From Thaumarchaeota archaeon CSP1-1 (GTDB taxonomy: Archaea; Thermoproteota; Nitrososphaeria; Nitrososphaerales; Nitrosopumilaceae), in NCBI GenBank assembly GCA_001443365.1, contig LDXL01000005.1, positions 60,072 to 118,253 on the forward strand: a stretch of DNA of 58,182 nucleotides, in the 5' to 3' direction. Position 1 is the stretch's first letter; each line of letters starts with the position of its first letter. The notes below the pieces were generated by a model that worked only from the letters and a program-made list of their open reading frames with translations, searched no databases and was not told where the DNA came from. Position numbers and translations under genes: made by a program. Positions 28,695-31,555 of the stretch are shown here, piece after piece.

Positions 28695-29795
28695 TTAGTT
28701 CTGGGCTACCTCATTGCGTAACTTTTGGGTTACTGTAGCCTCAATATCATCAAAAACATCTAACATTTTCTTCTTATTTTCATGTAAATAGTCAATCCCT
28801 CTATCCTTCAGTCTAATCTTCCATAGCCTAATTTCTCTATGACTTTCAAAAAATTGGTCTATCATTTGCTGACCAAATTTTGTTGAATCAATAAATAAAT
28901 CAAAATTATCAATTGTTTTTTCAATATCTTCTTCCTCGATAGATGATTTGACGGTTTGAATCGCTTGACTAATTTCTTTTAGATTTTTTATCGTACTTGG
29001 TAATCTTTTCTGCGTTATTCCAAGCAATCCTCTCTTTTCAACTCCAACTTTTTTTGCCATTTCTGGAGTAAGATCATAAGTGTCTATTTTACTAAATCCT
29101 TGCTGTTTTTGATGTTTAACAACAAGCCCTTTTTCAATTAATTTTGAAAGTGCATCTAGCGCATCAGCCTTATCAAGGAAAGTAGTCCACACCATGGAAC
29201 CAATTGTATGATACCCTTGTCTGATAGACTCTAAAACAACAATTTCAACAATTCGTTTAAAACCTTCTTCCACACGGACATTTACAAAATCTTTGTCCTT
29301 AACAGCTCTTTTTGCATTTTTAACATCAATCTCTATTGCTCGCTTTAGTGCCTCTAATGATTCAGGTATTTGATTTAAAAGAGAAAGAAAACATGCCTTG
29401 TTATACCATGCCATACCAAAGGTTGGTTCAGATTCAATTGATTTTTCAACAGAGTCAAGTGCCTTTGCATAGTTTTTTTGTTCATAATGTACCAAAGCTT
29501 TTAAATTCCAAGCTTCTGCATTTGTTACGTCGATATCTAAAATCTTATCATAAACTCTCAAAGCATCTAAATGATCATCTAAATGAAATCTTGCATAGCC
29601 TAATTTTAAAAGTGCATCAACATTATCTGGATCTATTCTCAAAACTTGCTCAAAGACTTGTACAGCATCTTCAAGCTTTTCATCAGCCATTAAATTAACG
29701 CCTTTTTTGAAAAGTTTGTTTCTATTATAATCAGCATCAGTGAGACTAGTTTCTTCTTTTTTTTCTTCTGGTTTCTTTTTGAAGGGTTTCTTCAT
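28695..29795 (-). CDS. TPR protein with winged-helix domain
   Basis: A 366-residue cytosolic protein. A Lys/Glu-rich N-terminus (MKKPFKKKPEEKKEE) precedes four TPR-like repeats (about 25-165), each with alternating A/Y/L and a closing P. A region of about 80 residues then resembles a winged helix (VLESIRQGYHTIGSMVW, ALSKLIEKGLVVKH, IDTYDLTPEMAKKVG). The C-terminal 100 residues are charged helices. It may couple protein binding with nucleic-acid binding. No catalytic motif is visible. It converges on the rhodanese gene with a 10-nt gap. Confidence 0.75.
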   Translation of the reverse strand: MKKPFKKKPEEKKEETSLTDADYNRNKLFKKGVNLMADEKLEDAVQVFEQVLRIDPDNVDALLKLGYARFHLDDHLDALRVYDKILDIDVTNAEAWNLKALVHYEQKNYAKALDSVEKSIESEPTFGMAWYNKACFLSLLNQIPESLEALKRAIEIDVKNAKRAVKDKDFVNVRVEEGFKRIVEIVVLESIRQGYHTIGSMVWTTFLDKADALDALSKLIEKGLVVKHQKQQGFSKIDTYDLTPEMAKKVGVEKRGLLGITQKRLPSTIKNLKEISQAIQTVKSSIEEEDIEKTIDNFDLFIDSTKFGQQMIDQFFESHREIRLWKIRLKDRGIDYLHENKKKMLDVFDDIEATVTQKLRNEVAQN

Positions 29796-29920
29796 ACAGA
29801 TTACTTTAACGAATTTTCTCTAGATAAATACTATTCCTAAAATTTTCCTAGTTCTACCATTGATCTCACTCTTTTTCAAAATGGTAAATACAAAAATACT
29901 TCATAATTCCACCTTCGGTA

Positions 29921-31231
29921 GTGTCTACTAGCCCTAAAATCGAGATTCAAGGAACTTCTCCTTTCAAACTACCTTCGGGGGTTTTTGAGGTCCAAATCGC
30001 AATTTCTGATAAAAAGCCTTCTGAAAAAAGCCTAATTGAAAAAAATTTTCCAACTCTGTGGAAAGACGATTTTCATTTAAGAGTACAAGACCGAAAATTT
30101 ACCGAAATTTTAGGAAGCAATGAAAACCCCTTACCGCAATCAGTATTAGATTCTGATTCTGTCTGGGTGATAGTTTCAGATCAGTTTTCTTCTTTAAATT
30201 CAGTTTTTGATGTACAAATTTCCAAAACCTCAACGCGTAAACCTGTAAAACCTAAGATTGAAACTCCATCAAGAGAACCTGATTTTAGAACCCCTGCAAA
30301 AATTCAGAAAGAAACAGTATCACCTCGTGATGAATATGGTATTCCAATAGAACGAAGTTCTCGTGTAACATCCGGTCAAGGAGGAGATAAAGGAAGAACA
30401 GGTCCTCCAGGTCCACAAGGTGATCAAGGTCCTGAAGGCCCACCTGGTGACAAAGGAGATACAGGTCCACCTGGTGACAAAGGAGACAAAGGTCCTACAG
30501 GACCAAGAGGAGATAAAGGTGACAAGGGGCTAACTGGAGATAAGGGAGATAAAGGAGACAAAGGCACTCCAGGTTTCACTGGCGAGAAAGGTGACAAAGG
30601 AGTACAGGGTTCTCCAGGTGATAAAGGAGACAAGGGTACTACAGGTGAACGGGGGCCTAGGGGTGCAGCTGGAGATAAAGGTCCAACAGGAGAACCAGGT
30701 TCTAAAGGTGAAACAGGAAGAACAGGAGATCCTGGCATAGAAGGTGATAAAGGAACTCAAGGACCTCAAGGGAAACCTGGTGATAAAGGATTAACAGGAG
30801 TTCCTGGAACTCCAGGAGACAAAGGTGATAAAGGCCCACCAGGTACTCAAGGAGAAAAAGGTCTTACAGGTCCATCAGGCCCTCCAGGTGATAAGGGCCC
30901 AATAGGTCCACAGGGTCCACAAGGTCCAAGAGGACAAGCAGGTCCACCAGGAGAAAAAGGTCCAATAGGTCCTCAAGGGATACAAGGTCCTCAAGGAGAA
31001 AGAGGTCCAGCAGGTACTCCAGGTCCACAAGGTGAACAGGGTACAAGAGGAGAACAAGGTCCGCCAGGAGCGATAGGTCCTAGGGGTCCTCCAGGTCCAC
31101 CAGGAGAAAAAGGCGCTGCTGGAATGTCAGAGGAAAATAAAATACTGTTTAAGGAATTATTACACATACTAACTTCAAAAAACATCATTACTACACAAGA
31201 ACAAATCAAATTGATGAGTTACCTGTATTAG
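29921..31231 (+). CDS. Collagen-like triple-helix repeat protein without export signal
   Basis: A 436-residue protein: an N-terminal non-collagen region (1-154), 82 uninterrupted Gly-X-Y triplets (155-400, bases 30383-31120), and a short helical C-terminus (401-436, [19 protein letters not shown]). The triplets are rich in GDK, GEK and GPQ; Lys-Gly-Asp and Lys-Gly-Glu sequences stabilise triple helices without hydroxyproline. The N-terminus has no signal peptide or membrane segment, and none follows, so the protein appears cytosolic or is exported by an unknown route. The start is GTG 29921, with AATAC/TATA-like sequence about 26 nt upstream. Confidence 0.88.
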
Positions 31232-31270
31232 TAATATGTTCAAATATGATTAAGAACTGAGTAATGTTTG

Positions 31271-31555
31271 ATGAGTCAAAAACCAAATAAAATCGAATTT
31301 AAAATGCTGGATTACGAAAGATTAGAAAATGAATTTGTATCCTTCAAACTTGAAGATGGCACAATTGTAAAAGTAAAAGTTGATTTAGATCGAGTAGGAA
31401 TTGCTACCAATTATAATAATCCTGATGGAACCCCTCACTATGCCATCAATACATCAGTAAAATTATCTATAATTCCAAACGATAGAAAATTCTCTGTCGA
31501 GAAAACCTCAATAAAAGGAACGCAATCTTCTCCGCCATCACAAATGTTTAGTTGA
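31271..31555 (+). CDS. Small hypothetical protein after the collagen-like gene
   Basis: A 94-residue protein starting MSQKPNKIEFKMLDYERLE. It is probably a small beta-rich domain (VSFKLEDGTIVKVKVDLDRVGIATNY, then INTSVKLSIIPNDRKFSV). No cysteines, membrane segment or catalytic motif are visible, and I do not recognise a family. It follows the collagen-like gene by 39 nt on the same strand and could be part of the same transcription unit. An in-frame TTG precedes the ATG immediately; ATG 31271 is chosen. Confidence 0.6.
   Translation: MSQKPNKIEFKMLDYERLENEFVSFKLEDGTIVKVKVDLDRVGIATNYNNPDGTPHYAINTSVKLSIIPNDRKFSVEKTSIKGTQSSPPSQMFS

Follow-up and report, generated by a model that had tools for sequence, protein, structure and literature searches.

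A collagen-like protein that carries no export signal raises the question of where in the cell it acts; the inside of a cell is an unusual place for collagen. Such a protein is encoded in a 58,182-nucleotide stretch of DNA from Thaumarchaeota archaeon CSP1-1, referred to here as the window. A preliminary description left it open whether the protein forms a cytosolic rod or is exported. If the protein is leaderless and conserved, then either it is a collagen with a core structural function in the cytosol, or an unknown export route exists. The family concerned, the Nitrosopumilaceae, is a large group of ammonia-oxidisers and ranks with the most abundant archaea of the ocean. The domain plan, the absence of an export signal, selection, conservation and phyletic range could all be observed directly. 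The features of the locus are listed below.

29886..29901, + strand: conserved BRE/TATA-like archaeal promoter, AAATACAAAAATACTT, spanning -35 to -20 relative to the start codon
29921..31231, + strand: collagen-like protein gene, 436 aa, GTG start, without export signal
29924..30232, + strand: head domain at the N-terminus (~103 aa), a beta-sandwich plus two short helices
30233..30373, + strand: Pro/Lys-rich variable linker, fast-evolving, pI ~10
30374..31129, + strand: collagen rod, 84 uninterrupted Gly-X-Y triplets, residues 152-403, ~72 nm
30788..31129, + strand: C-terminal 38-triplet rod module, beginning GLTGVPG, of constant length among orthologs
31076..31105, + strand: imino-rich segment adjoining the tail, matching G[PA]RGPPGPPG; proposed triple-helix nucleation site
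31130..31228, + strand: C-terminal two-helix tail, putative trimerisation/nucleation domain

The 82 Gly-X-Y triplets described previously at 30383-31120 are exact (residues 155-400), and with GQG before them and GMS after them the maximal run in the window is 84 triplets. When the protein was shuffled 2,000 times the longest run was at most 7 triplets. PF01391 (Collagen) was the sole Pfam match to the protein (E 1.7e-42; 143.4 bits versus a threshold of 27.2). The rod includes 18 GDK, 9 GPP and 7 GPQ triplets and has proline at 27/84 X positions and 17/84 Y positions; its composition is typical of hydroxyproline-free prokaryotic collagens. It had also been called rich in both K-G-D and K-G-E. 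K-G-D is indeed frequent (8), but K-G-E occurs only once, which brings the KG[D/E] total to 9 over 84 triplets.

The 84 nine-base units of the rod DNA comprise 66 different sequences. Compared with the same-genus ortholog L002, 41/84 glycine codons carry synonymous changes and no glycine is replaced; the comparison with L005 gave 45/83 codon changes, again with none replaced. Because glycine codons change yet the residue stays, the repeat is maintained for its glycine periodicity and does not reflect recent DNA expansion. Against L002, dN/dS is 0.09 for the head, 0.11 for the rod, 0.04 for the tail and 0.67 for the linker. Over the closest relatives compared, the tail is at 0.03-0.04 and the linker at about 0.6-0.67. 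Within the rod, dS of the C-terminal 38 triplets (30788-31129) is 0.64-0.84, below the 1.1-1.6 found elsewhere, a hint that the DNA or RNA itself is under additional constraint or is biased in composition.

The same architecture was found in 68/68 intact copies, namely a head, a variable linker, one unbroken rod and a tail of 32-37 residues. These copies, which include the window, are records rather than independent lineages, as a few come from the same or very similar genomes (L053/L054, L063/L074); L014, L024 and L025, whose assembled sequences are truncated, masked or frameshifted, are not counted as intact. The comparison of repeat number proposed in the preliminary description showed rods of 84-163 triplets, with 0 interruptions in 7,975 triplets. 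Several rod motifs keep a constant distance from the C-terminal end: GLTG[VI][PSL]G lies 114 residues from it in 65/68 copies, a second motif lies 57 residues from it in 52/53, and G[PA]RGPPGPPG, present in 58/68 homologs, lies 18 residues from it in 57. This result indicates that the last 38 triplets are fixed and that length changes are N-terminal.

Both end domains are predicted to fold. The head (~100 residues) was modelled by AlphaFold2 as a beta-sandwich with a mean pLDDT of 93.1, and an alignment of 71 sequences has 10 invariant residues. It matched nothing among Pfam, PHROG and PDB sequences, and a Foldseek search with its fold against PDB and viral models (BFVD) gave nothing significant; among the weak best matches was the adhesin SgrA, through its ligand-binding region (TM 0.42, not significant). 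A putative homology of the head to a domain that occurs in secreted or fibre proteins of bacteria, with the motif LW-x-V-x-G-x-F-x-LGS-x-PLP, was also considered. This assignment found no support in Pfam, PHROGs, PDB, a phylum-wide profile search or a plasmid search with a consensus. The tail (~34 residues) was modelled with helices at 6-21 and 27-35 (pLDDT 90). With 8 invariant and 4 nearly invariant columns of 38, it is the most constrained part of the protein. A SHOCT-type short C-terminal domain was considered for the tail and rejected, as 21 tails gave no SHOCT match at E up to 10, and no tail relative was found at a meaningful E-value among the other proteins of the genome.

A mis-called start could have hidden a signal sequence, a possibility raised in the preliminary description. 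Start codons of 67 homologs (GTG 43, ATG 22, TTG 2) fall at one position in nearly all copies. Most of these start-aligned homologs share an AAATACAGAAATACTT-like element at a constant distance, about -35 to -20, which implies a leaderless or near-leaderless mRNA. In-frame stops occur from a few to ~35 codons upstream of the start across the homologs; in the window gene the stop is at 29885, with 11 codons between it and the start and no leader encoded. Since the conserved promoter fixes the start and the stretch after the upstream stop is too short, there is no hidden leader, and a mis-called start is ruled out. No copy has a Sec or Tat leader between the upstream stop and the start. The reported lack of a signal peptide, membrane segment or sorting motif was borne out, the most hydrophobic 19-residue stretch of the window protein reaching only 0.84 on the Kyte-Doolittle scale. 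None of the listed copies has LPXTG or a hydrophobic 19-mer above 1.65. By comparison, all six further collagen-like proteins examined from the order (L137, L163, L164, L166-L168; one from Nitrosotenuis chungbukensis MY2 and five from two other families) have a Sec leader or membrane anchor at the N-terminus. Because exported collagens of the Nitrososphaerales carry signals, the leaderless window protein stands out.

The head was found by profile search once each in 51/52 listed Nitrosopumilaceae genomes and in 0/149 other genomes of the order; in the first sample it was present once per genome in 25/25 family genomes. Elsewhere in the phylum, a profile of 71 heads gave no convincing match, the best hit being a 66-residue frame at E 0.04. 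A tail scan of genome contigs recovered members from Nitrosopumilus, Nitrosarchaeum, Nitrosotenuis chungbukensis MY2, Nitrosomaritimum, Nitrosomarinus and Cenarchaeum, and also matched sponge or sediment MAGs; these named contigs are the basis for calling the family Nitrosopumilaceae. Of the records with names, 'Thaumarchaeota archaeon B16T1B3' and 'Nitrosopumilales archaeon NPMR_NP_delta_1' (L051, L055) are the closest. The leaderless collagen is thus a family-wide, single-copy and strongly conserved gene of the Nitrosopumilaceae. This distribution, the conserved tail and the conserved promoter go beyond what had been described.

Some records depart from the pattern. The rod frame shifts after 18 triplets in L025 (G009:C1), followed by a second open piece, and past a masked stretch in L024 (G017:C115); assembly errors or recent gene decay are possible causes. 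In the 0.8 Mb genome with L018 the gene is retained; its rod numbers roughly 33 triplets and its tail has diverged. The MAG labels of L128 (Nitrososphaeraceae SCK_bin.6) and L080 (Phycisphaerae OFTM243) disagree with the gene, and the upstream region of L128 is nearly identical to the Nitrosarchaeum locus L109; both are probably mis-binned contigs.

The collagen gene is divergent from a TPR protein gene (28695-29795), and in most relatives the next gene downstream is a small conserved one (31268-31555, 95 aa) with no match in Pfam or NCBIfam. On one side lies a pair identified by eye as sulfite/nitrite-reductase-like and rhodanese, on the other a GTPase-like gene, in an order kept across the family. 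In G026, a genome from a sister family, locus L158 has the TPR and small genes side by side, divergent and ~100 bases apart, with no collagen gene between them. This arrangement could reflect insertion in the Nitrosopumilaceae ancestor or loss in the sister family; gain is the simpler reading because the gene is absent in all other sampled families. TPR orthologs are present in other families without the collagen gene, which makes the TPR protein unlikely as a dedicated partner. In G005 the two genes lie apart (L161 and L162), the sole such case among the relatives checked, so the pairing is not obligatory.

We propose that this Nitrosopumilaceae core protein folds in the cytosol as a homotrimer and most likely serves as an intracellular spacer or scaffold, a reading to which we assign a probability of roughly 0.55. 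The trimer, the direction of zipping, the location and the scaffold role we infer from sequence; for a trimeric triple-helical fold, the selection that preserves glycine is indirect support. Synthesis and folding would both take place in the cytoplasm. The three C-terminal two-helix tails would associate first, and the imino-rich segment beside them (31076..31105) would nucleate a triple helix, which would then zip from C to N through the fixed 38-triplet module and on through the length-variable segment. The head had been suggested as the trimeriser. It hangs on a fast-evolving linker, however, and the conserved helical tail beside the imino-rich segment is a better candidate nucleator. Collagen rises 0.286 nm per residue, so the predicted product is a rigid rod of 72-140 nm from which three beta-sandwich heads project on flexible linkers. 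Partners might be bound at the two rod ends, by the heads and possibly also by the tail. A cytosolic rod of 70-140 nm, if real, would span a sizeable fraction of the cell diameter.

No prolyl hydroxylase (PF13640) was recognisable in the window's genome. Recombinant bacterial collagens produced in E. coli melt at 35-39 C without hydroxyproline (PMC4066190), and KGD/KGE pairs are strongly stabilising in host peptides (PMC7824840). Therefore prolyl hydroxylase would not be needed, and cytoplasmic folding is plausible. An intracellular spacer or scaffold would also fit the missing signal and the near-universal single copy. The fuller proposal, that this is a family-defining, intracellular, hydroxyproline-free collagen forming a 70-140 nm cytosolic spacer or cytoskeleton-like scaffold whose head and C-terminal trimeriser are both new, is tentative, and we rate it somewhat short of an even chance.

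Other explanations of the rod were weighed. The Gly-X-Y tract could instead join head and tail as a disordered or polyproline-type linker, since the evidence is drawn from sequence and single chains with glycine at every third residue need not trimerise. If flexibility were all that a spacer needed, breaks should be accepted, as they are in the neighbouring linker (dN/dS 0.67); the rod instead has none in 7,975 triplets, no glycine is replaced despite 39-45 synonymous glycine codon changes, and Pfam Collagen matches at E 1.7e-42, all of which make this explanation very improbable. Least probable of all is that the protein is a fibre domesticated from a virus or contractile injection system and put together in the cytoplasm like prophage collagen fibres. 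The appeal of this view lies in prophage collagen-like proteins such as EPclA, which form trimers via a C-terminal trimerisation domain and have a similar architecture (PMC3368898). Searches with the tail or the head found no relative in IMG/VR, though, and none was found in 50,697 phage records; BFVD gave no significant fold match, and the neighbours are housekeeping genes in conserved order.

The main rival is a surface protein that leaves the cell by an unknown non-classical route and either stabilises the envelope or serves as an adhesin associated with the S-layer. Among cellular prokaryotic collagens, most of those studied are found at the surface, and the beta-sandwich fold of the head is common in extracellular binding domains. 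In a 2026 study of Nitrosotenuis chungbukensis MY2, 'LPXTG-anchored collagen-like adhesins' were up-regulated at low salinity, one of them was detected in the proteome, and an interaction with the S-layer was proposed (PMC13037477). The adhesin label is that of repeat-only NCBIfam models, and we reject it for the MY2 ortholog, which lacks LPXTG and scores 186.6 bits against a cut-off of 325. MY2 (L054, G041) has further collagen-repeat ORFs beside the ortholog. One of these, L137, has a clear Sec leader, an Ala/Lys/Asp-rich coiled-coil-like region and GATGPTG-type repeats. Because MY2 has these other ORFs, one of them Sec-led, the study may refer to another protein, and the further ORFs may be its adhesins. 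Repeat-based database names such as LPXTG-anchored adhesin would point readers towards a surface role for which the sequence offers no support. Furthermore, 0/68 copies carry a signal, whereas the other collagens inspected in the order do; LPXTG is absent from every copy; and a single copy in nearly all genomes would be atypical of adhesins. We therefore regard a surface location as possible but rather unlikely, and favour the intracellular spacer or scaffold.

A literature search on collagen in Nitrosopumilus found nothing describing this leaderless family, and the closest comparisons are with known collagen-like systems. Streptococcal Scl1/Scl2 and Legionella Lcl likewise have a long, uninterrupted and hydroxyproline-free Gly-X-Y rod with many charged triplets, and their models match the repeat of the window protein. 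The matches to NCBIfam SclB (NF038329; 130.9 bits, cut-off 325), SclA (NF038330; 122.7 bits, cut-off 400) and Lcl (NF046116; 135.1 bits, cut-off 500) are all sub-threshold, and the window protein differs from these systems in lacking a signal peptide and LPXTG and in having an unrelated head and tail. The BclA exosporium filaments of Bacillus also assemble a collagen rod without a Sec signal; unlike the window protein, BclA has a spore-coat role and a C-terminal TNF-like trimeriser. E. coli proteins of the EPclA type resemble the window protein in placing a collagen domain beside a C-terminal trimerisation domain, with another domain N-terminal (PMC3368898), but they are prophage-borne, whereas the window gene is chromosomal, single-copy across its family and unrelated in its end domains. 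The other Nitrososphaerales collagen-like proteins (L137, L163, L164, L166-L168) come from the same order and also contain Gly-X-Y repeats. They differ in their shorter runs of 20-40 triplets and their Sec leader or membrane anchor, and no head or tail in common with the window protein was recognised.
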